Assembly (NCBI RefSeq): GCF_014224355.1
Contig: NZ_VNWP01000005.1
Location: 1 to 64,000, forward strand
DNA: 64,000 bases
Reading direction: 5' to 3'
Source of the DNA: Synechococcus sp. BSA11S
GTDB taxonomy: Bacteria > Cyanobacteriota > Cyanobacteriia > PCC-6307 > Cyanobiaceae
Part shown: positions 789 through 17,308 of the stretch, piece by piece
Layout: each line of letters begins with the position of its first letter
Numbering within the stretch: position 1 is the stretch's first letter
Program-made: the position numbers and the translations under genes
The notes under the pieces: generated by a model
The model's input: only the letters and a program-made list of their open reading frames with translations
Databases searched by the model: none
Told to the model about the DNA's origin: nothing

Positions 789-1763
789 TCACCACCGCTC
801 GACACGACCTGGGTCGCCGAGCTTCTGGCGCAGAATCCGGGGGTACCAGGCCTGGGGAATCCAGAGGAGTGGAGCCAGTAACACCATCACCAGCCCATAG
901 TGCCAGGACAACAGAGCCAGGTGCAGATGGATCGTCAGAGGCCGCACTCCTTGGGAGCGCGATCCGTAGAAGGGCCGCACCCGCAGACACTTCACCACCA
1001 TGCGAGCCCAATCCCTGTGGAACAACATCCGCTGCAGGGCGCGGCGATTCTCCGCGTCGATGATGCCACAGAACGTGGAGAGTGAGATCGCCATTTCATA
1101 CCAGGTGGCCGCCTTTGGCCAGCCGGCTTCGGATACACCGTGGGACACCGGCCGCAGCGGCGAGAACATCAGCCGATAACCATCCTGGGCACAGGCCTTC
1201 AGAGGCGGCAGCAGGTGGGAAAATTTGGTGGAATAGCCAAGATAGGCCGTGGCCAGATGGCGGCGGCAAGGGGCTGTGCGAAACAGCCAGTTAGACACCA
1301 GCAACAGATTATTGAACGCCTGTGGATAATCAGCGGCCAACATGGTGTCAAGGTATCCGCTCAAGGCCGTCACCGTGCAGGCAGACTGACGACCGAACAA
1401 TCCAGAGTCGTACTTCACTGCGGTGATGTCCTCCGGCAGGTCGTCGATCGTCTGGATGAGAATGTCCCGCGCCGCTGGTGTGAAGAAGTCGTCGTCGCCC
1501 ACGATCATCAACCAGGGGGTGGTCACCACCTCAAAAGCCCGCAGGAAGTTCACCCCCGCCGAGAGGTTGGCGACGTTGCGCCGATAGCTGAGCGAGTGCC
1601 CCTGGAACTGCAGGGAATGGCCAAGACTCGAGACCGGATCATTGTCTGACACAATCACATCAGCAATTGCTGCCAGTCCCGCCTGCTCGAGGGAATGCAG
1701 CAGCTCCAGCAACGACGCTTCCCGCTGATACGTGGGAATCCAGATGGTGAGGAGGTTGGACAA
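789..1763 (-). CDS. Family 2 glycosyltransferase
   Basis: Predicted inverting GT-A sugar transferase that adds one residue to the polysaccharide made by this island. The protein (about 324 aa) opens with the typical GT2 strand LLTIWIPTYQRE, followed by a VSDNDP turn and the metal/nucleotide-binding motif VGDDDFF. A hydrophobic stretch near the C-terminus (ALLSWHYGLVMVLLAPLLW) may anchor it at the membrane. I chose the TTG start at 1763 because the GT2 fold begins there and the upstream gene stops 4 bp before it; longer readings run into that gene. It is the last island gene before the unassigned left end. The acceptor and donor sugars cannot be read from sequence. Confidence 0.8.
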   Translation of the reverse strand: MSNLLTIWIPTYQREASLLELLHSLEQAGLAAIADVIVSDNDPVSSLGHSLQFQGHSLSYRRNVANLSAGVNFLRAFEVVTTPWLMIVGDDDFFTPAARDILIQTIDDLPEDITAVKYDSGLFGRQSACTVTALSGYLDTMLAADYPQAFNNLLLVSNWLFRTAPCRRHLATAYLGYSTKFSHLLPPLKACAQDGYRLMFSPLRPVSHGVSEAGWPKAATWYEMAISLSTFCGIIDAENRRALQRMLFHRDWARMVVKCLRVRPFYGSRSQGVRPLTIHLHLALLSWHYGLVMVLLAPLLWIPQAWYPRILRQKLGDPGRVERW

Positions 1764-1767
1764 GGGG

Positions 1768-3012
1768 TCAGAACCAGGAGATCGGCGGCAGGCGGCGCAG
1801 CCTCGAACCGAAGCTGAACAGGCGGGTGCTGAAGAAGACGATGAACGGCTGCAGCAACCGGAATAGGCCGATGGCGCCCAGCACATCCGCCACCCGATCG
1901 ATCAGATTCAGCAGCAGGCAGAGAGCGCTATGGGTCCAGTAGGGCAGCTTGAGTGTGCGTACATACAGGCGGGCGAAGCCGGAGGAAAGTGCTGTGCCGT
2001 TGAACACCGTCTGAATCGTACGGGTATCTTTGATCGACTGGCAGTAATGATCGATGGATTGAAGTGTGTCCGGGCCGATACGCAGCGATTCCATCAGCAC
2101 CGGATCAGTGAATAGCTGCTGAATCAAAGCAACTGCCTTTCGATTCACAGAACGGAAGCGCAGCAGAGAAAGCTTTTGGGGAGGGCCATCGGCACCCAGC
2201 CTATCAATGAAGCACTCGGCATCATCGGTGACATAGGTGGAGAGATCCACGAGAAACTCGTTGAAGCAGGACGGGGGAAACGGATTGCTCGTCAGGTACA
2301 CAGGAAGGCCCAGATTCGCGGCCTCCAGGAAGATGTTGGTGAGCGGATCAAAGCTGATCAACCCCCGCGAATCAGCCATCAAGTTAATCAGTCCCTTCCG
2401 AGTAGAGGGATAGTCCCGCGTGATCAACCGTATGTTCAATCCCAGCAGGGCACGATGCAGGGGCCTAGGCAGGGCTTTAAGCCTGCCCTTACCGGTATAG
2501 AAGCAAACAGATCTGAGCTGCTGGCGATGGGGGCGATAGGAGCCATTCGCCTTGGTGAGTTCGGCATCGGCAGGGGGATGAATGAACAGGTAGTTCGGGT
2601 GACAAGGAAACGCAAAAGTAGAAAAGGGCAGCATCAGATCCCCTGGACGCATCGCTGGCTTGTAGGTGGTCAGCAGACCACTGGGAGCCAGTACCCACCA
2701 CAGCACCTGCTGGAAATATGGTCGAGCCTTCTTGAGCAAACCCCTCGGGGCAGATTCCGGCACCACCAGGAGGCTCCCCTCCGGCGCCTCCCGGAAATGG
2801 GCAATGAAACGAAACTGCCGAAAGCGTTGGTGGAGCTTTGGCCAGTAACGTCGGTAAAAGCGATAAGGCTGATAAGGCAATAGGCAGACATCGTGCCCGG
2901 CGTCCTTCAACTCCATGGCCAATGTGAGAATGCAGGAGTGACCGTTACTGCGGGGATTCAGTTCCGTCGGTGAGAGGAAAACGATACTGCGGGGCAAACT
3001 CACGGTCAACAC
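1768..3012 (-). CDS. Glycosyltransferase-like protein (GT4-like architecture)
   Basis: Protein of about 414 aa, probably a sugar transferase of the island, although family motifs are weak. The N-terminus (IVFLSPTELNPRSNGHSCIL, then LAMELKDAGHDVCLLPY) looks like the first Rossmann half of a GT-B enzyme. The middle part (RGLISFDPLTNIFLEAANLG) resembles the nucleotide-sugar-binding region with its conserved Glu (SF.PLTN..LEA..LGLPV). Two hydrophobic segments near the C-terminus may associate with the membrane. The GTG start at 3012 is the longest reading and fits the fold start. It sits between an SDR gene and a GT2 gene on the same strand. It could also be a glycan-modifying protein of another kind; I do not recognise a named homologue. 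Confidence 0.6.
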   Translation of the reverse strand: MLTVSLPRSIVFLSPTELNPRSNGHSCILTLAMELKDAGHDVCLLPYQPYRFYRRYWPKLHQRFRQFRFIAHFREAPEGSLLVVPESAPRGLLKKARPYFQQVLWWVLAPSGLLTTYKPAMRPGDLMLPFSTFAFPCHPNYLFIHPPADAELTKANGSYRPHRQQLRSVCFYTGKGRLKALPRPLHRALLGLNIRLITRDYPSTRKGLINLMADSRGLISFDPLTNIFLEAANLGLPVYLTSNPFPPSCFNEFLVDLSTYVTDDAECFIDRLGADGPPQKLSLLRFRSVNRKAVALIQQLFTDPVLMESLRIGPDTLQSIDHYCQSIKDTRTIQTVFNGTALSSGFARLYVRTLKLPYWTHSALCLLLNLIDRVADVLGAIGLFRLLQPFIVFFSTRLFSFGSRLRRLPPISWF

Positions 3013-3061: not shown

Positions 3062-4060
3062 TCAGAGATCGATACGAAGCGGGGAACAGCTTAGGGGAGT
3101 GGGTCGCCCGTTCTCTGGCCAAGGCGGCGCGGCCAGCCCTAAACCCACACCGGTATCAATGATCTGTTCTTCGAGGCTGTGGGGATTCTGATCAAATCTG
3201 GTCAGAGCTGCAAGGAACGGCTCGGTGTCGGCCCCATAGCTCTGGGCAGGCGCGGTAGTGTCGAGCCGGGAAATCACAGGGGGCAGACGATAGATCCTGC
3301 ACACCGATTCCGCCAGCTGTTCCAGACTTACATGATGCGTAACAGCATCAAGTTGCCCCAACGCAGGGGGCTCGGCAGAGAGCAACCAGGCCCAAGCCAA
3401 AGCGGTGATATCACCGGCATTTCCATAACTACGCCACACCGGAGCAGGTGAGTTGATGCGAATCGGTAAGCGCTGCTGCGCCTTGAGAAGAAAGTCGCCA
3501 AGGGCGAAACGCGCCGGATCTCGGATGAAACGACCGGAAAGGGCGTAAATCCGCAGAACGAGAGCCGAACGGTTCCGAGCCAGAAGCCTTTCCTCCTCTA
3601 GCTTGAGCACACCATAGGGGTCGTCGAGCAAGCTCCTCTCTGGATCAGAACATGAGGCATGGACTGCGGCTGCTCCAGAGGAGACGACGACAACCCTGGC
3701 AGCAGGGGCCAGTTCGAGAGCCCGGAGAACCTGTGCAGTGATGCCGCGATTGATGGCAACGTATCGTTCCTTTTCCATCGAGCCGAGACGATCCCGGGTG
3801 AGGAAGGCCGCATGAAAAAAGGCACTGATCCGGCCACTCATCGCCAGATCAGGCAGGTCCGAGAGGGGATAAACGGGAATTTTCAACTGCAGCTGATCTG
3901 GATACGCTGTGGTGGGAAGTGTGCTGGATCGACTGGCAAAAGCACGCACTCGCTGCATGAATTCGTCCGGAGTCATCCGCCGCTGAAGAGCATGGAGCGC
4001 TGAGCGCCCAACCCAGCCAGTGGCCCCCGAGACCACAATCAAACCAGAATCAGACAGCAA
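3062..4060 (-). CDS. NAD(P)-dependent epimerase/dehydratase-like SDR
   Basis: Extended-SDR protein of about 332 aa, predicted to oxidise, reduce or epimerise a nucleotide-linked sugar or a derived intermediate. The N-terminal nucleotide-binding motif GATGWVGRSA is intact. VVVSSGAAAVHAS supplies the catalytic Ser region, and DPYGVLKLEEE carries the YxxxK pair. The start is a TTG at 4060, five bases after the stop of the upstream aldolase gene, whose last codons contain a purine-rich GGAGGGAG that could serve as ribosome binding site. The position between the aldolase and the glycosyltransferases suggests a late reduction or epimerisation step. The substrate is unknown; this family is too broad for a firmer call. 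Confidence 0.75.
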   Translation of the reverse strand: MLSDSGLIVVSGATGWVGRSALHALQRRMTPDEFMQRVRAFASRSSTLPTTAYPDQLQLKIPVYPLSDLPDLAMSGRISAFFHAAFLTRDRLGSMEKERYVAINRGITAQVLRALELAPAARVVVVSSGAAAVHASCSDPERSLLDDPYGVLKLEEERLLARNRSALVLRIYALSGRFIRDPARFALGDFLLKAQQRLPIRINSPAPVWRSYGNAGDITALAWAWLLSAEPPALGQLDAVTHHVSLEQLAESVCRIYRLPPVISRLDTTAPAQSYGADTEPFLAALTRFDQNPHSLEEQIIDTGVGLGLAAPPWPENGRPTPLSCSPLRIDL

Positions 4061-4914: not shown

Positions 4915-6741
4915 TCAGGACCCAGCGCTGATGTAAGGAAGAACAACTGAATTCAACTCCTGATCAAGTTCCGGTGTCATGCGGTGGAGAGGGTTAGACT
5001 CCATTCCTCCAGTGACGCTGACGCGGCTGGCAATCTTGGGGAAATAGGTTTGCTCTGGGTGAAGCGGAACCAAAAAGATGTCAGGACCCTCACGAGTCCA
5101 ACGCCTCAGGAACTTGGGATCGCCCTGCCATTCGCTCGAAAGCTGATAACAATTAAGCCCATAGGCCTTAGCAAGCATACGCCAATCAGGAAAACCCAGC
5201 CCACTACTGATGTCGCAACCAAGGTAGGCCCCATCAAAGTAGTTTTTTTGAGTCATGCGGATCGAAGCATAGCCATTGTTGCAGAAAAGAAATATTTTCA
5301 GATTCAGTTTATTGACTGACGCCGTAGCCAACTCCTGCAGATTCTGCGTGAAGCCTCCATCCCCCTCAACCAGTACTGTGCGGTGAAGAGGGTCCGCCAA
5401 GCTGGCACCAATCGCTCCCGCAAGTCCGTATCCCATGCTGGCCAGGCCCTTGTTGGTCAGCATCGTCTGATCATGACGAATTTCGAAAGCCTGCATCATT
5501 ACGGTGAAAGCCCCACCACTGCTGCAAGGAACAATGTGATCCTCAGGACCTGTGATCTGAGAAAGAGTCAGTGCAAAGTCATAGGGATTAAGAAACCCCT
5601 CAGGCGTAAGATTACAGTCTTCAGAAAGGGGAAGCCTGTCTCTGACAGAAATGCAGAATCCAAGCCACTCCCTGTGATCACCTAGCTGACACCCCATCAG
5701 TGCTTCCAGAAAGAGATCTGCATCTGCAGCAATCGGCAGGTCAACAGTGGGATTGGCCTTCTCCAATTCAAACGGATCAAGCTCAACCTGGATGATCTCT
5801 CCCAACGGAAGGAAGGATTGCCAGTTGAACCCTGTCTGCTGCAGACCCAGACGCGTTCCAACGGAAATCAGGAGATCCGATTGCTGAATCAATATATTGC
5901 TGTATCGCATTCCCCAAGTGTTGGGGCGCCCAAAGTAGTTGGGCTGGTCTGATCCGAAGCGATCCGCTCCATTCCATGTGGTCATGATGGGCAGGCTGAC
6001 CGATGCCAGAGCACTCCTGAGGCGCATGGCACACGGCCGACTGACACCCCCTCCAATCAGAAGCACAGGACGTCTGGCTGTACAAATTCGGGAAGCAATG
6101 TCCTCGATCTGGAGCGATGCAGTCACATCTGCAGACACCTTTGGTGGATCCTTGGAGGATGCAGGCAAGGCTGAAGACTCCAGAGGGGCAGGCCGAAACT
6201 CCGTTGAGGAAAACTGGGCGGCCTGCACATCCAGAGGGATCTCCAGAAAGACGGGGCCCCTTCTGCCGCTCATGCCTTGGCGAACAAGGGTCTCAAACGG
6301 CTCGCGCTGCAACGGTTCACGGAGGCACTCGCTGACCTTGCACACCGGAGCCGCGAGGGAGACACCGTCCACTTCCTGAATTCCCAGCTGACGGAGGCCC
6401 GCTGGAGCCAGATCCTGCACTTTCACTTGGCCTCCGATCAGAAGCAGTTCCCGACTTTCCAAGTAGGCGCCTGCCAATCCTGTAATCGTGTTCGTCAGCC
6501 CCGGGCCCGCAGTGACCAAAGCCAGGGACCGGCCCACACCCGGGGCTGCCGTACCTGTATCGAGAGTAGCGTTGTGATACTCAGCAGCAATCACCGCCGC
6601 AACCTCGTGAACGGTTGGCACACAGACCATTCTTTGGCGTGCTGAATTCAGCAGATGCATGATGTTTCCCCCTGCCACGAAATAACAATGGGAATAGCCG
6701 ATATCAACCAGCCAATCAAACAGGCAATCGGAGTACTTCAT
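4915..6741 (-). CDS. ThDP-dependent acetolactate-synthase-like enzyme (YerE-like candidate)
   Basis: Large thiamine-diphosphate enzyme of 608 aa with acetolactate-synthase architecture. The N-terminal PYR domain carries the cofactor-activating Glu (HE at residues 45-46, VPTVHEVAAV). A central Rossmann-like domain follows (PVLLIGGGVSRP). The C-terminal PP domain has the GDGG...NN metal-diphosphate motif (VEGDGGFTQ, then FLFCNNGY). Family members decarboxylate pyruvate and move the acetyl unit to an acceptor. YerE of Yersinia does this onto C4 of CDP-4-keto-3,6-dideoxyhexose to make branched yersiniose. Here rfbF/rfbG/rfbH would supply that acceptor, so a YerE-like role is a reasonable inference, not proof. 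The start overlaps the upstream cyclase stop by 4 bp (ATGA). A true acetolactate synthase is less likely because no ilvN partner is present. Confidence 0.85.
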   Translation of the reverse strand: MKYSDCLFDWLVDIGYSHCYFVAGGNIMHLLNSARQRMVCVPTVHEVAAVIAAEYHNATLDTGTAAPGVGRSLALVTAGPGLTNTITGLAGAYLESRELLLIGGQVKVQDLAPAGLRQLGIQEVDGVSLAAPVCKVSECLREPLQREPFETLVRQGMSGRRGPVFLEIPLDVQAAQFSSTEFRPAPLESSALPASSKDPPKVSADVTASLQIEDIASRICTARRPVLLIGGGVSRPCAMRLRSALASVSLPIMTTWNGADRFGSDQPNYFGRPNTWGMRYSNILIQQSDLLISVGTRLGLQQTGFNWQSFLPLGEIIQVELDPFELEKANPTVDLPIAADADLFLEALMGCQLGDHREWLGFCISVRDRLPLSEDCNLTPEGFLNPYDFALTLSQITGPEDHIVPCSSGGAFTVMMQAFEIRHDQTMLTNKGLASMGYGLAGAIGASLADPLHRTVLVEGDGGFTQNLQELATASVNKLNLKIFLFCNNGYASIRMTQKNYFDGAYLGCDISSGLGFPDWRMLAKAYGLNCYQLSSEWQGDPKFLRRWTREGPDIFLVPLHPEQTYFPKIASRVSVTGGMESNPLHRMTPELDQELNSVVLPYISAGS

Positions 6742-7856
6742 AGGTGCGAAGCCAAAGTGGCCACATCCTGCAAAGCTCGGATCATGGCCTTTACAACAGC
6801 ATCGAGGCTTTGCGGATCGTCGGGTAACCTGCGCTCCACAACCCCCAGGTCATCAGTGTTGGAAGTGATCTGAGGGACGATGACGTGGAGGATTCCGGGA
6901 CTATGTTTTTTGTCACCTCTGAAGGCCTGCCTGAAGACCGTTTCATCAAAACAGTCGATCTGGGCAAAACTCACAACACCATCGAGCAATGTGAGCGAAT
7001 GGCGTCGTAATGGCTCCTGCTCAACAGAGCGGCCGCAGAACTCGATTGCCGCCAGCATCCCGATGGCCACGGCAAGTCCGTGGGGAACCGCAAATCCCGT
7101 CGCCGATTCCAGAGCATGACCCCAGGTATGGCCGAAGTTGAGGAGTCGGCGCTCGGCTCTGTCGAACTCATCGCGTTCGATGAACCACTGTTTAATGGTG
7201 AGCGTGGCATGCACAAGCGCTGCCAGGTCGCTGTCCTCCCAGGTGCCCGACAGGAGGGGTTCGGCAAGGCGCCTGTGAGCCTCAAAGGCGGCAGAGCCTC
7301 GGCACCAGGCGATCTTGGCCGCTTCAGCAGCACCACCGCGAATTTCCACAAGCGGTAGGGAGCGCGCAAATCCGGGCAGAATCTCGATATTCCTCGGGGG
7401 ATGGAAGTTACCGATAAGGTTTTTATACGGACCTGCGTTGATCGAACTCTTCCCGCCCAGACAGGAATCCGTCATCCCCAGAAACGTGGTGGGCACATAG
7501 GACCAGACAATCCCACGCATATAGAGCGAAGCCACAAATGTGGCGATGTCCTGAATGACGCCACCGCCGATGGCTATCAGGGTGGAGGATCGGGACAGCC
7601 CAGCCTCCTTGAGAGCCAGAAAGATAGTGAGAACAGCGTGGTAGGACTTCGCCTGTTCCGTTGCCTCCACATAGACAACAGGCACTCCCGGAGGCACCTG
7701 GAGGCGATTCTGAAAAAATGCATCCACCACTAGGAAATCCCCTGATGGCTCCCAGGCGGCAAGATCCGTGGATGCATGGACAACAACAGCATAATCCGCC
7801 ATTGAACTGCGGATTTTGATGGTCGGCAAACCTGGCGGGGAGTGGGTCAGAGCCAT
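6738..7856 (-). CDS. 3-dehydroquinate-synthase-like sugar phosphate cyclase
   Basis: Protein of 372 aa of the NAD- and metal-dependent sugar phosphate cyclase family, which turns a phosphorylated sugar acid or sugar into a carbocycle. The NAD loop is IGGGVIQD, and VPTTFLGMTDSCLGGK carries D130 and K136. Predicted metal ligands are E178, H243 and H259. R236, N240, H243 and H247 keep the spacing of the AroB active site (LLNFGHTWGHALE), and K181, K222 and the DKK near 315 are also present. By residues it looks catalytically competent and closer to dehydroquinate synthase than to valiolone-type synthases. Yet it is overlapped by the ThDP gene inside a sugar island, so a role in a cyclised sugar is more likely than shikimate supply. 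A displaced aroB cannot be excluded from this window. Confidence 0.82.
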   Translation of the reverse strand: MALTHSPPGLPTIKIRSSMADYAVVVHASTDLAAWEPSGDFLVVDAFFQNRLQVPPGVPVVYVEATEQAKSYHAVLTIFLALKEAGLSRSSTLIAIGGGVIQDIATFVASLYMRGIVWSYVPTTFLGMTDSCLGGKSSINAGPYKNLIGNFHPPRNIEILPGFARSLPLVEIRGGAAEAAKIAWCRGSAAFEAHRRLAEPLLSGTWEDSDLAALVHATLTIKQWFIERDEFDRAERRLLNFGHTWGHALESATGFAVPHGLAVAIGMLAAIEFCGRSVEQEPLRRHSLTLLDGVVSFAQIDCFDETVFRQAFRGDKKHSPGILHVIVPQITSNTDDLGVVERRLPDDPQSLDAVVKAMIRALQDVATLASHL

Positions 7857-7880: not shown

Positions 7881-8582
7881 TCAGGTGCGGCGGAGGCCGA
7901 GGAAGCCCCCATCCACGATCAGGGACTGACCGGTGATGACACGGTTGCTCGGTCCGATCAGGAATGCCACTGCAGCAGCAATGTCCACGGGCTCCGCCAA
8001 GCGCAGAAGTGCGGTCTGTTGAATGAAGCCGTCAATCTGATCAGCGGACAGATGCTGACGAGTCATGGGTGTATCGACGACGCCGGGCAGGACCGCATTG
8101 ATGAGGATCCCCCGTTCACCGAGATCCAGCGCACAGGATTTGACGAGACCCTGGAGCGCGGCTTTTGACACGGTGTAGGAGAACTTGCTGAGTCGACTTT
8201 CCATTTGCCAGATCGAACTAATCACACACAACTTCGCACCAACATGGAGTTTGCCGGCACCCAACAGGGCAGCCATGCTGGAAGCAATGAAAGCGACATT
8301 GGCCTGCCAGAGATCAGCGAACGCCCCAGCGTCGAATTCTGTGATTTTATCGCTGGTATTGAGTCCATGGGCCCACACCACACCATGGAGTTCTGGAAGG
8401 CCCTGGAAGATGCTGGAATCCGGATCGGAGGCATAGTCCACCACGGTGTGTTGGCCGGATTCGGCATCAGCACCGCGCGGCCGACCGGCAGTGAAGACCT
8501 GCCAGGAGAGTGCCTGCAAAGCCAGTCGAATCGACTCTCCCAGGGCACCGCCGGCACCGAAGACCAGCACATTCTGATTCAT
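7881..8582 (-). CDS. Short-chain dehydrogenase/reductase
   Basis: Classical SDR of 233 aa, predicted to reduce a keto group with NAD(P)H. The nucleotide-binding glycine motif is VFGAGGALGE at residues 6-15. VVWAHG corresponds to the NNAG region, CVISSIW supplies the catalytic Ser, and FSYTVSKAAL gives the YxxxK pair. The C-terminal LIVDGGFLG is typical of the FabG-like type. The start is the ATG at 8582, which overlaps the rfbH stop as ATGA; a longer upstream reading would lie wholly inside rfbH. Translational coupling to rfbH suggests it acts on the product of RfbH or of the ThDP enzyme, as YerF does after YerE in yersiniose synthesis. That step assignment is inference. Confidence 0.88.
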   Translation of the reverse strand: MNQNVLVFGAGGALGESIRLALQALSWQVFTAGRPRGADAESGQHTVVDYASDPDSSIFQGLPELHGVVWAHGLNTSDKITEFDAGAFADLWQANVAFIASSMAALLGAGKLHVGAKLCVISSIWQMESRLSKFSYTVSKAALQGLVKSCALDLGERGILINAVLPGVVDTPMTRQHLSADQIDGFIQQTALLRLAEPVDIAAAVAFLIGPSNRVITGQSLIVDGGFLGLRRT

Positions 8583-10105
8583 CGAACTTCGGGAACGAAT
8601 CCGCTCACGAAGGCTTTGATGTAAGCGATCTCCCTGTCGATCATTGCATCGCTGAGTCCCGGGTAGGTACCCAGGAAAAGGGCCTGATTCATCAACTGAT
8701 CGGCGCCTGGCAGTTCGCTCACCGCCAGGCGCAGGGCCTCGGGGCGGTCGTGGCGCAGCTGCACGAACACCGGCTGCCGCAGCAGGTTGCCACCGAACAG
8801 CATGCGTGTGCCCACGCCGGCATCGGCCAGGTGGCGGCCCAGGTCGGAGCTGCTGAACGGAGCTTCGGGGCGCACTAGCAGCAGGAATCCGAACCAGCTG
8901 CAGTCGGTGGAGGCGCCGCTGGAATCCCACTGGAAGCTGCCGCTGGCCGCATCGAACCCGGTGGCGTGGGTGGGCAGGCAGAAGCGGAACAGATGGCTCA
9001 GCGGATCAAGGCCCCGGCGCAACCGCAGCCAGTTGCGCTTGCGCGCCTCGATGAACTCCGGCAGCCGCCGGATCTGTACCCGACCGATCGCCGCCTGGGG
9101 GTCGAGAGGTTTGAGATTGTAGCCCAGATGGGAATAGATGTACTTGTGGTCATAACCCTGAGGCAATTCCCCCAGCTGCCAGTCGTAGCGCTTGCCGCAG
9201 GTGTTGTCCTTGCCGCTGGGGCACCAGCAGTCGCGCCCCCAGTCGCGAAAGCTTTCAACAATCCGTCGCAGCAGGCCGCTGCGCGTGATGTTCACCGCAC
9301 CGCCTTCGCCCATCGTGAGGTGGTGGGGCGGATAGAAGCTCTGGGTGCTCAGGTCGCCCCAGGTGCCGGTCCAGCGGATCACCCGGTTGGGACCGGCGTC
9401 GAGGCCAGGGCTGTTCTCGCTGAACCCCAGCGCTTCGGCCTGGGCCCGGGGCATGGCGTAGCTGCAGCCGAGGGCGTCGCAGTTGTCTTCCACCAGCCAG
9501 AGCTGGTGCTCCTGGCAGAACGCCAGCACCGCACCCAGATCAAAGGGATTACCGAGGGCGTGGGCCGCCATCACCGCCTTGGTCCTGCCTGGGGTGTAGG
9601 CCTGGCCCAGCTGGCTGACCAGCAGGTTGCCGGTGCAGGGGTCGTTGTCGATGAAGACCGGGATGCAGCCGTTCTGCAGGATCGGCGTGACGGTGGTAGG
9701 AAAGCCGGCCGCGCAGGTGATCACCTCATCACCGGGCTGCAGGCGCCGTTCGGCGGGCAGCAGTGGGGAGGTCAGGGCCGAAAGCGCCAGCAGGTTGGCG
9801 GAGGAGCCGGAGTTCACGGCCAGGCAAGCCTTCACCCCCAGAAAGGCCGCCAGTTCCTTCTGGAAGGCCTCACCCTCGGCGCCGAGGGTGAGCCAGAAAT
9901 CCAGCGTGCTGCCCACCGCTGCTTCGACTTCGTCCTCGGTAAACACCCGGCCCGCGTAGGGAATGGCGCCCCGTTCGGGATCAAAGGCGGTCCGCTCGGA
10001 ATCCCAGCCCGGTCGGAAGGCCCGGTGGGCGTGTCGGGCATACTGACGGGTGAGCCGCAGAATGTCCTGCTTGAGGTCGTCCAGTTGGGCGAAGCTCGGC
10101 GGCAT
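8579..10105 (-). CDS. rfbH: CDP-4-keto-6-deoxyglucose-3-dehydrase (E1, RfbH-type)
   Basis: PMP/[2Fe-2S] enzyme that removes the 3-hydroxyl of CDP-4-keto-6-deoxy-D-glucose on the way to 3,6-dideoxyhexoses. It has the DegT/AHBA aminotransferase fold, but the usual PLP-binding Lys is replaced by His in SFYPPHHLTMGEGG (H262). The iron-sulfur ligands are visible as C214, C293, C295 and C303 (DWGRDCWCPSGKDNTCGKRY), with the exact CxCx7C spacing of Yersinia E1. The segment between the first Cys and the His is longer than in E1. I prefer the ATG at 10105 (508 aa); a TTG at 10141 would add 12 residues. An E3-type reductase is normally needed, and none is in this window. Confidence 0.93.
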   Translation of the reverse strand: MPPSFAQLDDLKQDILRLTRQYARHAHRAFRPGWDSERTAFDPERGAIPYAGRVFTEDEVEAAVGSTLDFWLTLGAEGEAFQKELAAFLGVKACLAVNSGSSANLLALSALTSPLLPAERRLQPGDEVITCAAGFPTTVTPILQNGCIPVFIDNDPCTGNLLVSQLGQAYTPGRTKAVMAAHALGNPFDLGAVLAFCQEHQLWLVEDNCDALGCSYAMPRAQAEALGFSENSPGLDAGPNRVIRWTGTWGDLSTQSFYPPHHLTMGEGGAVNITRSGLLRRIVESFRDWGRDCWCPSGKDNTCGKRYDWQLGELPQGYDHKYIYSHLGYNLKPLDPQAAIGRVQIRRLPEFIEARKRNWLRLRRGLDPLSHLFRFCLPTHATGFDAASGSFQWDSSGASTDCSWFGFLLLVRPEAPFSSSDLGRHLADAGVGTRMLFGGNLLRQPVFVQLRHDRPEALRLAVSELPGADQLMNQALFLGTYPGLSDAMIDREIAYIKAFVSGFVPEVR

Positions 10106-10171
10106 TTCGTTGCCGGTGGGCGTGTCGCTGCTGGAAGGCAAAGTGCTGCGGCGGCAGGCAAGGGCAACCTA

Positions 10172-11308
10172 TCAGGAGCCCAGATAGGATTCGATCTGCT
10201 CCAGGCACAGGGCCCGGCACGATTCGCCCTGTTTGAAGCGCAGGTACCAGCCCGCGGTTTGGGCCACCGTGTCTGCGAAGTTCCAGCGCGGCATCCAGCC
10301 CAGGCGATGGAAGGCACGGTCGGTGCTCAGATCCAGGCGTGAGGCCTCGTGGCGGGCCTGGGGATCGGAATGGTCCTCCCAGCGACCGGGCCAGTGCTGC
10401 AGGAGACCCTCCACCAGATTGCAAACGGGCTGGTTGGACTGGCGATCGGGTCCGAAGTTAAAGGCGGTGTCGAGGCGAGAGCCCTGCTCCGGCCTGGAAG
10501 CGATTCCGACGCCTTCTGCCTGGCCCTGCAGCCGCTCCGCCAACAACAGGTAGCCGCCAAGGGGCTCAAGCACGTGCTGCCAGGGCCGGGTGGCGGTGGG
10601 GGAGCGCACTGCAATCGGGCGCTCGGCGATCAAGGCGCGGATGGCGTCGGGGACAATACGGTCCTCAGCCCAGTCGCCTCCGCCAATCACGTTGCCGGCC
10701 CGGGCCGAGGCGATCCGCAGACCGGGACACTGGTGGGGCGCCTTGCCGCAGAAGCTGGAGCGCCAGCTGGCGATGGCCAGTTCGGCCGCTCCCTTGCTGC
10801 TGCTGTAGGGGTCGTGGCCGCCGAGCGGATCCTCCTCGCGGTATCCGAAGTCCCACTCCCGGTTGTCGTATACCTTGTCCGTGGTGATCATCACCGCCAC
10901 ACAAGGCTGGTCGAGCTGGCGCAGGGCCTCAAGCACGTGACAGGTGCCGATAACGTTGGTGGACCAGGTGAGCAGCGGTTCCTGGTAACTGCGCTGGACC
11001 AGCGGCTGGGCGGCCAGATGGAACACCACCTCGGGGCGGAAGGCCCTCAGCCGGGCACACAGCAGCGCCAGGTCGGCCAGGTCGCCGCGTTGATCGTGCT
11101 CCAGCGCGTCCTCCAAACCCAGTTCGGTGAAAAGGGGCTGCATGGGGCCTCCCACCGGGGGCTCCGGATCCAGCGCATAGCCCTCCACCACTGCCCCCCA
11201 GTGGAGCAGCCAGAGCACCAACCAGCTGCCCTTGAAACCAGTGTGTCCGCTCAACCAGACCCGCCGGCCGCGCCAGAAGTCGGGGGTCCAGGAGGGGCTG
11301 ATCACCAT
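10172..11308 (-). CDS. rfbG: CDP-glucose 4,6-dehydratase
   Basis: Extended SDR that converts CDP-D-glucose to CDP-4-keto-6-deoxy-D-glucose, the second step of CDP-3,6-dideoxyhexose synthesis. The nucleotide-binding site is [15 protein letters not shown], which has the HTGFKG signature of this subfamily. [24 protein letters not shown] and the catalytic [10 protein letters not shown] (YxxxK) follow, and WAEDRIVPD and [14 protein letters not shown] are also diagnostic. The ATG at 11308 overlaps the end of rfbF by 7 bp; a GTG at 11317 is an alternative. Gene order rfbF-rfbG-rfbH matches the classical cassette of enteric O-antigen loci. Confidence 0.95.
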
Positions 11309-12069
11309 GTTTTCCACGGGGCCGTGCCCTCCTGCCAGAGACGTTCGAGCAGTTCCTTGTCCCGCAGGGTGTCCATGGCCTGCCAGAAACCGTGATGTTG
11401 AAAGGCGTTGAGTTGGTGGCGAGCTGCGATCTGGGGCAGGCAGTCGCGCTCCCAGACATCGTCGTCGCCACTGATGGCGCTGAGCACCTCCGGCTCGAGC
11501 ACAAAGAAACCACCGTTGATCCAGCCCCCATCCCCTTGTGGCTTCTCCTCAAAAGACAGCACACGGCCGCGCTCAAAGGCAATTGAGCCGAAGCGTCCAG
11601 GAGGCTGCACAGCGGTGAGGGTGGCCCAACGGCCCTCCTGGCGGTGGAAATCGATCAAGGCCGTGATGTCGACGTCGGCAAGGCCATCGCCATATGTGAA
11701 GCAAAAACTACCGTCGTTGAGATAATTGGCCACCCGCTTGAGTCGTCCACCAGTCAGAGTGGAATCACCCGTATCCACCAAGGTTACACGCCAAGGCTCA
11801 GCGTTTTGCTGGTGCACCTCCATGCTGTTTGTAGCCATGTCAAAAGTGACATCACTACTATGAAGAAAATAATTAGCAAAATACTCCTTTATCACATAAC
11901 CCTTGTAACCGCAGCAGACAATAAAATCATTGATTCCATGCTGCGAATAGACTTTGAAAATATGCCAGAGGATAGGTCTGCCGCCAATCTCCACCATGGG
12001 CTTCGGCTTCAGGTGAGTTTCTTCGCTGATGCGGGTTCCAAGCCCGCCAGCCAGTATCACCGCTTTCAT
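11302..12069 (-). CDS. rfbF: Glucose-1-phosphate cytidylyltransferase
   Basis: Nucleotidyltransferase of 255 aa that makes CDP-glucose from glucose-1-phosphate and CTP, committing carbon to the CDP-deoxysugar pathway. The N-terminal signature is [20 protein letters not shown], with [17 protein letters not shown] after it; [11 protein letters not shown] is the metal-binding region. The gene lies 3 bp after wzm and overlaps rfbG. Base composition changes inside the gene: the first part (plus-strand 11,821-11,940) is about 35% GC, while the last part (11,401-11,520) is about 62%. That suggests a recombination junction within or beside the gene. Confidence 0.95.
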
Positions 12070-12072
12070 ACC

Positions 12073-12900
12073 TCAGATCCAAAGGGGAAGACGATAGCGG
12101 AGTCGCCTCAACGCCCACACCGCCAGCATAACTCCCAGCCCATTGATGACGAGCGACATTACTTCGCTCCCCAGCTGCAGCCGCCCATCGATCAAAGCAT
12201 TCCTTAGAGGCGCAAGCGCCTGGTAGAAAGGATTGAAGTCGGCAAGCAAGCCAAGACGGCCTAGCCCCTCCCGCTTGTAGAGAATCGGAGAAACCAAAAA
12301 AAGAAGCTGCAGGATAATAGGCATGAGTTGGGCGAAATCCTTGAATCTTGCCCCAAGCAGGGCCATCAACACAAGGATCCAGAACGCGAATAGCGACAGA
12401 TTTAGCATCGGCAGCCAGATGAAGCGGACTGCATTGAGCAGGAGTGCGGGATCCAAAAAGGCAAAGGCCACCAGAATCACCACGAAGGCCTGGGCAAAGG
12501 TTTGTAGCTGGAACGCCCATTCCTCCAGACAGTAAAAAATACTCGGTAGTGCATTGTTCACCAACTGGTCACGGCGTTGCATGAACAACGTGCTGCCAGC
12601 CACTGACGTCATACTGATCAGACCCCAGATCGTGATCCCTAATCCGAGATAGATGATGTAGCGAATGGGGTCCTGCACATTTAAAACCGTGCCATAGACT
12701 ACCCCAAGAACCCCTACGCTGAGGAGGTTGCTGAGCCCCATCCAGAAGCTGCCAAGGGTTGTACGGCTAAACCGAGCCAGGGTTCGCAACCAAGCGCTGT
12801 ACCACCAGGCCCGTGCCGTTCGAAACGCAAAGAAAAGGCCCTGACCCGTGGCCGGATTGGCTTCCCGCAGGCCCATGTCCCCAGGGATTGGTGTCTGCAT
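12073..12900 (-). CDS. wzm: ABC-2 type polysaccharide exporter permease
   Basis: Inner-membrane permease of 275 aa of the Wzm/KpsM type, which with the adjacent ATPase exports a lipid-linked polysaccharide to the periplasm. Several hydrophobic helices are visible: LLSVGVLGVVYGTVL, YIIYLGLGITIWGLISM, FVVILVAFAFLD, LFAFWILVLMALLGA, LLFLVSPILYK and LVINGLGVMLAVWAL. The DPIRYIIYLGLG segment and the motif around FNPFYQALAPLRNAL are family features. It lies 3 bp after wzt and 3 bp before rfbF, so it is part of the same transcription unit as the sugar genes. Confidence 0.92.
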   Translation of the reverse strand: MQTPIPGDMGLREANPATGQGLFFAFRTARAWWYSAWLRTLARFSRTTLGSFWMGLSNLLSVGVLGVVYGTVLNVQDPIRYIIYLGLGITIWGLISMTSVAGSTLFMQRRDQLVNNALPSIFYCLEEWAFQLQTFAQAFVVILVAFAFLDPALLLNAVRFIWLPMLNLSLFAFWILVLMALLGARFKDFAQLMPIILQLLFLVSPILYKREGLGRLGLLADFNPFYQALAPLRNALIDGRLQLGSEVMSLVINGLGVMLAVWALRRLRYRLPLWI

Positions 12901-12903
12901 CGC

Positions 12904-13710
12904 TCAGCCTGGCCTCTGGGTGTAGGCCTCAATCGCCTGGTCCAGAGGACCATCGAACACCAGGTGGCCGTGACTGAGCACCAGTCCGCGGCTGCAGAAC
13001 TGTGCGAGAAGATCGTTGGAGTGGGACGCGAGGATCAAGGTGCCTACCTCCCCCAGAAAGCGGGTGAGCTGGTGCTTGGCCCTGGAGAGAAACCACTGGT
13101 CACCGGCGCCAATCCCTTCATCGAGAGCGAGGGCCTCGTGGCGAAAGGCGGTGAGGAGGCCGAACTGAAGGCGGGTGCGCATGCCATCGCTGTAGGTGCG
13201 GATCGGCAGATTGATGAAATCAGCCAGTTCGGTGAACGCGGTGAGTTCTTCAAGAAAGCAGCTGAATCCCTCGATCGTGTTGCGATTGAGCAGGTAGTGA
13301 GCCTTGGCGGCGTGGCGGCCGCTGAGATCAGTGTCGACCCAGAAACTCTTGTTGATCAGCGGCACCACCTGCTCATAACGACGAATGCGTCCGCTACTGG
13401 GTCGGTACACATCGGAGAGAAGGCGCAGCAGGGTGGATTTACCCGCTCCGTTGTGGCCCAGCAGCGCCACCCGCTCACCCTTGTGGATCGTGAAGCTGAG
13501 GTCGTTGAGGGCGCGAACCGACACTCCACCACTCTTACCGCGGTTGAGCAGCCCTCCGGTTAGGCCACCCACCAGTGCCGCCTTGAGAGAACGGCTGCCG
13601 ACGCCCTCCACGGGAATGTCAAGGCAGACCCCGTCCAGCTCAACCAGCGGCTGATCGTTGATGGCAGCAGGGGACCGCTGGTCGACAGGGATAGTCACCA
13701 TGTCACTCAT
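12904..13710 (-). CDS. wzt: ABC polysaccharide exporter ATPase
   Basis: Nucleotide-binding subunit (268 aa) partnering the Wzm-type permease. Walker A is GHNGAGKST at about residues 85-93, the signature motif is YSDGM at 173-177, Walker B is ALALDEG at about 193-199, and the H-loop is in LILASHS. The protein stops soon after the ATPase core, so it lacks the C-terminal carbohydrate-recognition domain of O8/O9-type Wzt. Export is therefore more like the KpsT or O-antigen types that do not read a terminal cap. The ATG overlaps the ribH stop by 4 bp (ATGA), placing the exporter under a housekeeping gene. Confidence 0.92.
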
Positions 13711-14198
13711 AGGGCAGCCACGGGAGGCAACACCTGCATCAGGCTGCCCATCTCCAGGGCCTGCAGGGCATAGCTCCAGCCCAGGTTGCTCTTGATGCCG
13801 GCCCGCTCGAGGGCCTGCTGCATGGTGTCGGTGGTGAGCACACCGAAGATCACCGGCACGCCGGTGCTGCGGGAGACCGCCGCCACCCCCTTGCTCACCT
13901 CGGCGCAGACGTAGTCGAAGTGGGGGGTGTCGCCCTTGATCACGGCCCCGAGGGTGATCAGCACCTGGTAGCGGCCCGTGGCCGCCAGGCGCTGGGCCAC
14001 CAGGGGAATCTCGAAGCTGCCGGGCACCCAGGCCAGATCCAGCTGCTCGCTGCCGGGGCCGGTGTCGATGCCGTGGCGCGAGAGGCCATCCAGGCAGGCG
14101 CTGAGCAGCTTGGCGGTGACCAGGTCGTTGAAACGACCGACCACGATGCCGATGCGCAGGCCGCTGACGTCGGTGAAGCGACCTTCAAAAACGGTCAA
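13707..14198 (-). CDS. ribH: 6,7-dimethyl-8-ribityllumazine synthase
   Basis: Penultimate enzyme of riboflavin synthesis; it condenses 5-amino-6-ribitylaminouracil with 3,4-dihydroxybutanone 4-phosphate and forms icosahedral or pentameric shells. The 163-aa protein shows [33 protein letters not shown], the [15 protein letters not shown] motif with the catalytic His, and [17 protein letters not shown]. The C-terminal [20 protein letters not shown] is of the cyanobacterial type. The start appears to be TTG at 14198, five bases after the psbZ stop. No in-frame ATG is better placed. Confidence 0.96.
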
Positions 14199-14563: not shown

Positions 14564-17308
14564 GTGCACGCCGTGGCCGCGCCGCCGGACGAACAGCTCT
14601 CGCTGGTGGCCGCCCTGGGCCTGGAGGCCCCGACAGCCGCCTCAGGCAGCCTTGCCGGCGAGAGCGACGACGACGCGCTGGTGGCGGAGGCCGCCGCCCG
14701 GCCCCGGCGCCGTCCGGCCAGGCAGGCCGCTCCCAGGGAGGACGGCGCCGGGACCGCCGAGGAGGACGGGGAGTCCAGCGACTCGGCGGAGCCCACGGAG
14801 CCACTGCCCCCCTGGCACCACCACGGCCTGGTGGATCCCGAGGCGCTGCCGCCGGTGCTGCGCCACTACGTGGAGCTGAAGCTGGCCCACCCCGAGAGGG
14901 TGCTGCTCTACCGCCTCGGCGACTTCTACGAGTGCTTCTTCGAGGACGCCATCCGCGTGTCGCGGCTGCTGGAGCTCACCCTCACCGGCAAGGAGGGGGG
15001 CAAGCGGATCGGGCGGGTGCCGATGGCCGGCATCCCCCACCACGCCGCCGAGCGCTACTGCGCTGAGCTGGTGCGCCGCGGCCTTGCCGTGGCCCTCTGC
15101 GACCAGCTGGAGAGCACCCCGGCCCCGGGCGCCCTGCTGCGGCGGGGAATCACCCGCGTGCTCACCCCCGGCACCGTGCTGGAGGAGGGAATGCTGGCGG
15201 CCCGCCGCAACAACTGGCTGGCGGCCGTGGTGCTGGAGCAGGGCCAGTGGGGGCTGGCGGTGGCTGACGTGAGCACCGGCGACTTCCAGCTGATCCAGGG
15301 CCACGGCAGCGATCAGCTGCACCAGGACCTCCTGCAGCGGCAGCCGGCCGAGCTGCTCTGGCCCACGCTCGAGCCGGGCGAGCCGGCCTGGGCACCGGAG
15401 TCGATCCAGCGCACGCCGCTGCCGCTCACCCCCTTCACCCTGCCGGAGGCGCGCCGCACCCTGCTGGAGCGCTACGGGCTGGCCAGCCTCGAGGGCCTTG
15501 GTCTTGGCGAGGCGCCCCTGGCCCTGAGGGCCGCCGGCGGTCTGGTGCGCTACCTCGATGACACCCAGCCCGCCACGGACGACCCGGCTGCCGCCACCAC
15601 CGCCGGCCGCATCCCCCTGGATCGGCCCACCCTCCGCCAGCGCAGCGATCAGCTGGTGCTCGATGCCCAGACCCGCCGCAACCTGGAGATCACCCAGCCC
15701 CAGCGGGACGGACAGTTTCAGGGGTCGCTGCTCTGGGCCCTGGATCGCACCATGACCGCCATGGGCGCCCGGGCGCTGCGCCGCTGGCTGGAGGCCCCGC
15801 TGATGGATCTCGAGGCGATCGAGCGGCGCCAGGAGGGCATCGGAGTGCTGGTGCAGGAGCGCAGCCTGCGCCTGGCCCTGCGCCGGCTGCTGCGGCCCAT
15901 GGGCGACCTGGAGCGGCTGGCGGGCCGCGCCGGAGCGGGCAGCGCCTCCGCCCGCGACCTGGTGGCCCTCGCCGATGGGCTGGAGCGCCTGCCCCGCCTC
16001 GCCGCCCTGCTGGATCCCGTGGCCGCGGCCGCCTTCGGACCCCTGCGGCAGGCCGATCCGGAGCTGGAGCAGCTGGCGGCCCTGGTGCGCCACACGCTGG
16101 GGGACGCGCCTCCGCTCAGCCTCAGCGAGGGGGGGCTGATCCACGATGGAGTCGACGACCGCCTCGATGGGCTGCGCAACCGGCTCGACGACCAGAATCA
16201 ATGGCTGGCCGCCCAGGAACAGGAGGAGCGCCGCCTCAGCGGCATCCCCGCCCTGCGGCTGCAGTTCCACCGCAGCTTCGGCTACTTCCTCTCGGTGAGC
16301 CGGGCCAGGGCCGCCCGGGTGCCCGAGCACTGGATCCGGCGTCAGACCCTGGCCAACGAGGAGCGCTTCGTCACGCCCGAGCTCAAGGCCCGCGAGGGTC
16401 GCATCCTGCAGCTGCGGGCCCGGGCGGCCCAGCGGGAATACGAGCTGTTCAACCAGCTGCGCCAGCAGGTGGGGGAGCTGGCCGCACCGATCCGCCGGGC
16501 CGCCCGGCATGTCGCCGGCCTCGACGCCCTGGCCTCCCTGGCGGAGGTGGCGGCCTGCTTCGGCTACTGCCGCCCCCAGCTGGAGCACAGCCGCTGCCTG
16601 GAGGTGGAGGCGGGACGGCACCCGGTGGTGGAGCAACTGCTGGTGGAGGAGTCGTTCAGCGCCAACGACCTGCACCTGGGCGAGCAGGGGCGCCCCGACC
16701 TGGTGGTGCTCACCGGGCCGAACGCCAGCGGCAAGAGCTGCTACCTGCGCCAGAACGGGTTGCTGCAGCTGATGGCCCAGATCGGCAGCTGGATCCCGGC
16801 CCGATCGGCGCGCCTCGGCCTGGCCGATCGCATCTTCACCCGGGTGGGGGCCGTCGATGATCTGGCCAGCGGGCAGTCCACCTTCATGGTGGAGATGGCC
16901 GAAACCGCCAACATCCTGCACCACGCCACCGACCGCTCCCTGGTGCTGCTCGATGAGATCGGCCGCGGCACCGCCACCTTCGATGGCCTCTCGATCGCCT
17001 GGGCCGTGGCGGAACATCTGGCGGCCGGGCTGCGGGCCCGGGCGGTGTTCGCCACCCATTACCACGAGCTCAACGAACTGGCCTCGCTGCTGCCGGGCGT
17101 CGCCAACTATCAGGTGCTGGTGGAGGAAACGGGCGACCGCCTGCTCTTTCTGCATCAGGTGCGTCCGGGCGGCGCCAGCCGCAGTTACGGCATCGAGGCG
17201 GCCCGGCTGGCGGGCGTGCCCCCCCAGGTGGTGCAGCGGGCCCGCCAGGTGCTGGGGAGGATCGAGGCCAACAGCCACGTGGCCGTGGGGCTTCAGGCCG
17301 CGGCCTGA
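14564..17308 (+). CDS. mutS: DNA mismatch repair protein MutS
   Basis: Mismatch-recognition ATPase of 914 aa. A disordered, Ala/Arg/Glu-rich N-terminal extension of about 90 residues precedes the usual MutS start ([20 protein letters not shown]). The mismatch-reading loop is [12 protein letters not shown], with the Phe-Tyr-Glu motif. The lever/clamp region carries [12 protein letters not shown], Walker A is GPNASGKS at about residues 718-725, and Walker B is [16 protein letters not shown] at about 792. The GTG start at 14564 is the only good in-frame candidate close upstream. The 3' end overlaps convergent cobH by 16 bp. GC is very high; one 60-base line of the gene is about 80% GC. Confidence 0.97.

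Follow-up and report, generated by a model that had tools for sequence, protein, structure and literature searches.

A dehydroquinate synthase-like protein in cyanobacterial polysaccharide loci as a candidate sugar-phosphate phospholyase for branched dideoxyhexoses

YerE and ErwE, the thiamine diphosphate (ThDP)-dependent enzymes of the yersiniose and erwiniose pathways, join 2-keto acids to cytidine diphosphate (CDP)-4-keto-3,6-dideoxyglucose, with ErwE using 4-hydroxy-2-oxo acids; in the available section of the review that describes them, the biochemistry is limited to this coupling step (PMC12247030). For long-branched sugars such as caryophyllose, most of the biosynthesis is still to be worked out. 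Caryophyllose is given as 3,6-dideoxy-4-C-[D-altro-1,3,4,5-tetrahydroxyhexyl]-D-xylo-hexopyranose. According to the accessible text of PMC5706390, loss of MMAR_2331, MMAR_2332, or MMAR_2333 in the fish pathogen Mycobacterium marinum leads to build-up of a precursor and no caryophyllose. A stretch of 64,000 nt from Synechococcus sp. BSA11S (contig NZ_VNWP01000005.1, positions 1–64,000; hereafter the window) contains a sugar island in which relatives of these pathway genes stand together with a gene for an AroB-like protein with the fold of 3-dehydroquinate synthase (DHQS). This protein is moderately likely to be a dedicated DHQS-fold sugar-phosphate phospholyase for a 4-C-branched CDP-3,6-dideoxyhexose (yersiniose, erwiniose, or caryophyllose type) of a surface polysaccharide.

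The AroB-like gene (Table 1) is confined to the minus strand, since the same interval read as the plus strand has seven stops. Its product scores above the Pfam cut-offs for DHQ_synthase (110.4 bits, E = 4.9e-32) and DHQS_C (84.8 bits). The top fold matches of its AlphaFold2 model (mean predicted local distance difference test score, pLDDT, 88.8) are the DHQ synthases 6lla, 5hvn, and 6lk2, and ValA (4p53) and 2-deoxy-scyllo-inosose synthase (DOIS; 2d2x) appear further down the list. Residues E178, H243, H259, K136, K181, K222, R236, N240, and H247 occupy the positions given in an earlier note on this DNA and align with those of AroB. The open reading frame (ORF) with a DHQS active site that the note had described is thus borne out, and the 4-bp overlap that it reported between the stop of this gene and the start of the ThDP gene is real. 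The protein shares with AroB the fold, the metal ligands, and the substrate residues, and likely also the oxidation-elimination-reduction core.

Despite these similarities, the protein differs from canonical AroB in several respects. The BSA11S genome (2.88 Mb, 42 contigs, listed completeness 99.99) has its own AroB: the other PF01761 gene, on contig 12, scores 161 bits versus 113 for the AroB-like gene, and reaches 367 bits against TIGR01357 (cut-off 305), whereas the window protein reaches 219 bits. The question of a second aroB, which the earlier note had raised, is settled by this gene, and the possibility of no other aroB in the genome did not hold. The best NCBIfam model of the window protein is TIGR04425 (P_lya_rel_AroB, AroB-related putative sugar phosphate phospholyase, a hypothetical/uncharacterised family), with 268 bits against a cut-off of 400. 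The same model is the best NCBIfam match in 11 of the 11 scanned members of the gene module described below, and the 10 besides the window protein score 277–312 bits, all short of the cut-off. A TIGR04425 profile search of 60 genomes gave no matches above the cut-off, and a full-text literature search, with most subscription papers outside its reach, found neither its accession in any paper nor a published function for the family. A plasmid search with the AroB-like protein returned 115 records, all below 60% identity; the best 40 of these carry the annotation 3-dehydroquinate synthase or DOIS, or no name at all.

The sugar-phosphate-cyclase tree that the earlier note had suggested gives the AroB-like protein a clade of its own, separate from those of AroB, DOIS, and a group similar to desmethyl-4-deoxygadusol synthase (DDGS). 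In a carefully built tree of 61 proteins, 29 module proteins fall on one side of a branch (support 100/98), 18 AroB rows form a group of their own (100/99), and the DDGS-like and DOIS rows belong to other groups than these. In a second, quickly built tree of 69 rows, which includes six mycobacterial AroB-like proteins and mycobacterial canonical AroB but omits L050 and L052, all 35 module and mycobacterial AroB-like proteins stay together (SH-aLRT 96; 82 for AroB). The position of the long rows L119 and L129 is uncertain in these trees, the proteins of L096–L099 and L163 were assigned by profile score alone, and the DOIS labels are those of the annotated records. For L060–L065, EBO and DDGS are presumptive labels given from family features. 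A third sugar-phosphate-cyclase gene in an M. marinum-like genome (L175; G1302:C1:633082-633423) lies next to the DDGS-like group and is without several DHQS residues.

The nine residues listed above, together with R114, D130, N146, and D315-K316-K317, are kept in 23/23 module homologs (window included), in 6/6 further homologs, and in 6/6 mycobacterial ones. The comparison rows, comprising two DOIS, one EboD, and five DDGS-like (DDGS/2-epi-5-epi-valiolone synthase-like) proteins, share the superfamily and the metal ligands, but the equivalent of R236 is G/A in DOIS, S in EboD, and C/D in the DDGS-like rows. The equivalent of K222 is Q in EboD and Y in the DDGS-like rows and is kept as K in DOIS, and that of N240 is altered in all three groups and unaltered in the module proteins. 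K222 and R236 correspond to K250 and R264 of the Aspergillus nidulans DHQS, which we take to be the holders of the C1 carboxylate of 3-deoxy-D-arabino-heptulosonate 7-phosphate (DAHP). Because these residues are kept, the substrate of the AroB-like protein should carry a carboxylate as DAHP does. Together with the neighboring gene of pyruvate-aldolase type (NeuB-family in two AroB-like loci), the kept K222 and R236 point to a DAHP-like 2-keto-3-deoxy acid phosphate. The "phosphorylated or nucleotide-linked ketose" of the earlier note is therefore only loosely supported; a nucleotide-linked substrate is possible if the protein acts after ThDP coupling.

For the distribution of these genes, loci were gathered with three queries (AroB-like, aldolase, and ThDP), and their context was read by tblastn with the window proteins and by profiles. 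The recurring module consists of RfbFGH, a YerE-like ThDP enzyme, an HpcH/HpaI aldolase, reductases, and an ABC exporter. Among 30 loci found by scanning named genomes with the AroB-like protein, seven (L050–L055 and L057) lack the module and are only remotely related to AroB, and L056 is module-like but cut off. A short-chain dehydrogenase/reductase (SDR), the AroB-like protein, ThDP enzyme, aldolase, and an epimerase/dehydratase-like protein (Epim) occur together, mostly with rfb genes, in Synechococcaceae, Prochlorococcus, Aphanothece, actinobacterial metagenome-assembled genomes (MAGs), and Pseudoduganella. The module is also found in Gallionella, Methylomonas, Pseudomonas (one P. viridiflava isolate), a Bdellovibrionales MAG, and, without the aldolase, Limnohabitans. 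No rfb genes were found within the stretches of L038, L048, and L049, and only rfbG in that of L036; the contig of L049 (as L112) has rfbF and rfbG further along. Epim is present in loci with and without the AroB-like gene, though not in all. Few genomes have the module. At E 1e-30, the aldolase had matches in 24/300 genomes of the window's family, part of them weak, and in 4/369 genomes of the class to which the P. viridiflava genome belongs; at E 1e-65, the AroB-like protein had matches in 5/394 genomes of the class around an actinomycete MAG. Nine of 20 regions around the family aldolase matches have SDR, AroB-like, ThDP, aldolase, and Epim genes, five of these being contigs found before. 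In one actinomycete MAG (L047:2769-2971), the ThDP gene is a short remnant between the AroB-like and aldolase genes, a deletion or an assembly artifact, and a search of that genome found besides the remnant only a 240-bit acetolactate-synthase-like match. In the Bdellovibrionales MAG (L049:11929-19622), an SDR–AroB-like–aldolase trio is followed by ORFs that by eye are FkbH-like, MaoC-like, SDR, and MBOAT-like, an acylation-type cassette.

The job of the AroB-like protein should concern a phosphate, because a haloacid dehalogenase (HAD) phosphatase usually stands where its gene is missing. The operon of L101 matches the window (rfbF 83%, rfbH 78%, wzt 80%, and aldolase 70% identity) and has a HAD phosphatase and another ThDP gene in place of the SDR, AroB-like, and ThDP genes; in L103–L105, a HAD gene lies between rfbH and the ThDP gene, the position of the SDR and AroB-like genes in the window. 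Among 52 non-redundant ThDP loci, 37 have the AroB-like gene (35 with the aldolase and two with NeuB). The HAD phosphatase is present in 12 of the 15 loci without the AroB-like gene (L101–L106, L118, L143, and L150–L153) versus one of the 37 with it (L129). Fisher p-values for this distribution (2.7e-8, or 3.7e-6 minus the four HAD rows used to build the profile) are descriptive, since loci that are related cannot count as independent. L101 and L103–L105 supplied the HAD profile, which was applied with a threshold of E 1e-8 in one scan and 1e-5 in three others, and stretches lacking the AroB-like gene were mostly searched over 20 kb or less. The count leaves out same-contig repeats (L033, L034, L092–L095, L100, and L120), AroB-like genes without a full ThDP gene in the stretch (L044 and L056, cut; L047, remnant; L117), ordinary or remote AroB (L025, L050–L055, and L057), aldolases without ThDP (L026, L027, and L107–L111), and G1284. 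It includes the incomplete loci L042 and L039 (ThDP cut at the stretch end), L049 (ThDP elsewhere on the contig, L112), L146 (aldolase about 12 kb off, L161), and L140 (AroB-like gene about 19 kb off, L163). We take it that the AroB-like protein and the HAD phosphatase would dispose of the same phosphate by different routes.

Compared with the YerE and ErwE pathways, the window shares the supply of the acceptor and the coupling enzyme (by similarity; for erwiniose, by description only). The CDP-sugar acceptor should be supplied, because RfbF, RfbG, and RfbH all score above curated cut-offs. The best solved relative of the ThDP protein is 8rph (265 bits), followed by an acetolactate synthase (178 bits); 8rph is JanthE, a YerE-like enzyme, according to the accessible part of PMC12188165. 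However, YerE takes pyruvate directly, whereas the module adds the aldolase, the SDR, and the AroB-like protein. The window aldolase is 52–73% identical to 22 other aligned rows. A sequence search among solved structures found nothing better than E 0.11 for it; its AlphaFold model (pLDDT 91.0) matches HpcH/HpaI aldolases, SbnG, YfaU, and 2-dehydro-3-deoxy-galactarate aldolase (E 1e-8 to 1e-7, TM about 0.6). A search of the Limnohabitans genome gave no aldolase match, and the aldolase slot in its locus is filled by a NeuB-family protein (PF03102, 134.7 bits; best solved relative 3g8r, 238 bits), a swap also seen in L129. NeuB-family enzymes convert phosphoenolpyruvate and an aldose to a 2-keto-3-deoxy acid. 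Because such a synthase takes the place of the aldolase in two AroB-like loci, the aldolase product is most simply of the same kind, and the precursor is probably a 2-keto-3-deoxy acid. Two further aldolase relatives lie in other settings. A Novosphingobium humi megaplasmid (L026:12992-15804) has rfbF-rfbG-aldolase, unannotated in the collection, with no AroB-like gene in the stretch. In Ilyobacter polytropus (L027:12001-12774), a 37% identical relative is surrounded by genes for isocitrate/isopropylmalate dehydrogenase, PrpF, and aconitase; this setting looks catabolic and may give a clue to the ancestry of the aldolase.

To reach a locus with a known product, YerE-like genes were sought in a mycobacterial genus, that of a genome rich in PE genes (G762); 16/297 genomes have one (E 1e-100), and 15 regions were examined. 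The AroB-like and SDR genes occur in L141, L142, L144, L145, L146, and L149, and the L140 genome has an AroB-like gene at a greater distance; the HAD gene occurs in L143 and L150–L153. An FGGY kinase gene lies beside the AroB-like gene in L129 and L145 (Pfam) and in L141, L142, L144, L146, and L149 (by motif). A NeuB-family gene is found in six mycobacterial loci without the AroB-like gene (L147, L148, and L150–L153). L147 and L148 have NeuB only and L154 has no keto-acid synthase match, and these loci are predicted to make other branch types. In genome G1302, which contains L145, seven of the nine mmar_2318/2319 primers in Table 1 of PMC4703794 have exact sites beside the locus; the remaining two look like deletion-junction primers, and other mycobacterial stretches have only two of those sites, with two mismatches each. 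The gene next along in L145 is wecE (616 bits, cut-off 434.85), in agreement with Table 2 of the same paper. Judged by these matches, G1302 is M. marinum or nearly so.

The glycosyltransferase family 2 (GT2), ThDP, aldolase, SDR, AroB-like, and FGGY kinase genes of L145 all run in one direction, and its ThDP gene is the sole YerE-like match of the G1302 genome (E 1e-100). MMAR2333 is described as a GT-A glycosyltransferase in the accessible text of PMC4403928. With the ThDP gene taken as MMAR_2332 and the glycosyltransferase on one side of it, gene order indicates that MMAR_2331 should be the aldolase. The M. marinum caryophyllose locus (MMAR_2331-2333 region) resembles the window in having ThDP, aldolase, SDR, AroB-like, and RfbF/G/H-type genes together, but it has an additional FGGY kinase, its AroB-like protein belongs to a divergent sister branch, and its sugar goes to lipooligosaccharide (LOS) rather than to an ABC-exported polysaccharide. 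The C4 branch of caryophyllose is open-chain, 6'-deoxy, and methyl-ended, and corresponds to what decarboxylative coupling and reduction would make of a C7 2-keto-3,7-dideoxy acid. Its terminal methyl would arise through phosphorylation, elimination of the AroB type, and reduction by the SDR. A branch of this open-chain, methyl-ended form speaks against ring closure in mycobacteria and, with less force, in the window. The available parts of the mycobacterial LOS literature gave no annotation for the aldolase gene or the AroB-like gene, and a literature search, with most subscription papers beyond its reach, found no paper joining caryophyllose biosynthesis with aldolase and dehydroquinate.

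Taken together, these comparisons suggest a pathway of five steps. RfbF, RfbG, and RfbH, whose families are clear, would make CDP-4-keto-3,6-dideoxyglucose. The HpcH/HpaI-type aldolase, or the NeuB-family synthase in two relatives, would supply a C7 2-keto-3-deoxy acid, with the terminal phosphate already there or added later by a kinase, as the swaps suggest. The AroB-like protein may remove this phosphate in a cycle that starts with the oxidation of an adjacent carbinol by NAD and goes on to beta-elimination and re-reduction. The product, an enol or methyl ketone, would be reduced by the adjoining SDR, such that the branch terminus would change from CH2OH to CH3; this step is modeled on the M. 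marinum locus and the structure of caryophyllose. By homology, the YerE-like ThDP enzyme would attach the acyl group of the keto acid at C4 of the CDP-sugar, either after or before the AroB-like step. Finally, Epim may reduce the branch ketone, and the glycosyltransferases and Wzm/Wzt would assemble and export the product. Ring building appears less likely than deoxygenation of the branch terminus. A wider and more tentative suggestion is that the whole clade, from Prochlorococcus to mycobacteria, may have turned from ring-makers to deoxygenases, running the oxidise-eliminate-reduce half of the DHQS cycle without ring closure to convert a phosphorylated CH2OH terminus of long-branched nucleotide sugars to CH3, and being exchangeable with the HAD phosphatase. 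Nothing on non-cyclising AroB relatives was found among the literature matches listed.

Several observations weigh against the phospholyase pathway. L129 has the AroB-like and HAD genes together (HAD at 14909-15577, opposite strand, beside a NeuB-family synthase and an FGGY kinase), the mycobacterial YerE-like loci L147, L148, and L154 have neither, and the HAD gene of L118 is about 5 kb from the aldolase. The final DHQS steps are thought to be spontaneous, and acyclic DAHP analogues are not bound by DHQS, although the enzyme takes a 2-deoxy DAHP analogue and halts before ring opening and aldol (PMC7144000, accessible text). With spontaneous final steps, ring closure would be expected of any free 2-keto substrate. 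An AroB-like step before coupling fits the carboxylate residues; one after coupling might hinder ring closure but leaves these residues unexplained. The mycobacterial AroB-like proteins form a divergent branch (234–248 bits versus about 420–520 for most module members; L128, L119, and L129 are also low at 360, 266, and 240 bits), and the outcome may differ between that branch and the window's. The M. marinum-like L145 shows no Epim match over its 20-kb stretch, L126 has no SDR, and a Pfam scan of 10 window ORFs found no FGGY kinase. Finally, no assay of any protein in the AroB-like clade was found in the literature, nor an M. marinum AroB-like mutant in the available LOS literature. A strict rule of "AroB-like or HAD" was considered and is refuted by L129, which has both, and by L147, L148, and L154.

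Alternatively, the AroB-like protein may be a true cyclase that follows ThDP coupling or takes its place and turns the phosphorylated branch into a cyclohexane ring, giving a C-linked cyclitol branch whose ring ketone is reduced by the SDR. Every DHQS residue checked is kept, a likely source of 2-keto-3-deoxy acid adjoins, NCBIfam calls a related family "cyclizing", and the spontaneous final steps mentioned above would favor closure. This explanation is nevertheless unlikely, given that the M. marinum-like operon with the same genes is tied to an open-chain branch, that the presumed C1-carboxylate residues are kept though a coupled substrate has no such carboxylate, and that Epim, a possible branch-ketone reductase, occurs with and without the AroB-like gene, if not in every locus. 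Less probable still is a division of the locus into two products, in which the aldolase, AroB-like protein, and SDR make a quinate-like acid carried on the polysaccharide while RfbFGH and the ThDP enzyme make a yersiniose-type sugar from pyruvate. The carboxylate-type residues and the adjacency of the SDR, AroB-like, and aldolase genes in L049, with no full ThDP gene within the stretch, are consistent with this division, but a YerE-like ThDP gene lies about 9 kb away on the L049 contig, and the HAD swap is seen while aldolase and ThDP genes remain together. A spare 3-dehydroquinate synthase acting on ordinary DAHP and placed in a sugar locus by chance would explain the full DHQS active site but is very improbable, given the canonical aroB elsewhere, the low TIGR01357 score, the separate clade, and contigs that in 40/40 AroB-like loci also carry an aldolase or NeuB gene (the 37 plus L044, L047, and L117; the cut L056 is uncounted). 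The canonical aroB, the score, and the clade, along with a sugar context recurring in dozens of genomes, support the assignment to sugar chemistry rather than chorismate synthesis made in the earlier note. Ring closure on the hexose itself, as in bradyrhizose and caryose, was rejected because the 3,6-dideoxy acceptor has a C6 methyl and any ring must be on the branch.

In cyanobacteria, pseudomonads, and mycobacteria, the module supplies candidate genes for keto-acid synthesis, phosphate removal, and terminal reduction. It also cautions against reading every aroB look-alike in a polysaccharide locus as a shikimate gene, and it may be a case of sugar deoxygenation through DHQS chemistry. If the phospholyase pathway is correct, the terminal methyl of caryophyllose would be explained, and the HAD/AroB-like and aldolase/NeuB swaps would predict branch structure from sequence.

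Table 1. Genes of the sugar island in the window.
Feature	Position (nt)	Strand	Basis or remark
Glycosyltransferase family 2	789..1886	minus	Pfam
Protein without Pfam family, perhaps glycosyltransferase	1768..3012	minus	Syntenic in some relatives
NAD-dependent epimerase/dehydratase-like protein (Epim)	3062..4060	minus	Pfam; possible branch-ketone reductase
HpcH/HpaI-type aldolase relative, 266 aa	4066..4866	minus	Pfam scan, alignment, fold match
ThDP-dependent YerE-like carboligase, 608 aa	4915..6741	minus	Overlaps the AroB-like gene by 4 bp
AroB-like protein (TIGR04425-related, DHQS-fold enzyme), 372 aa	6738..7856	minus	ATG start
SDR beside the AroB-like gene	7881..8618	minus	Longest ORF to 8930; start approximate
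RfbH-family dehydratase	8579..10141	minus	NF011936, 625 bits (cut-off 423)
RfbG, CDP-glucose 4,6-dehydratase	10172..11317	minus	TIGR02622, 452 bits (cut-off 278)
RfbF, glucose-1-phosphate cytidylyltransferase	11302..12069	minus	TIGR02623, 461 bits (cut-off 300)
ABC transporter permease, Wzm-like	12073..12900	minus	Read from sequence; syntenic homologs
ABC transporter ATPase, Wzt-like	12904..13710	minus	Read from sequence; syntenic homologs

At the upstream edge of the sugar island, an ORF that by eye is lumazine-synthase-like (window 13707-14198) overlaps the wzt-like gene by 4 bp.

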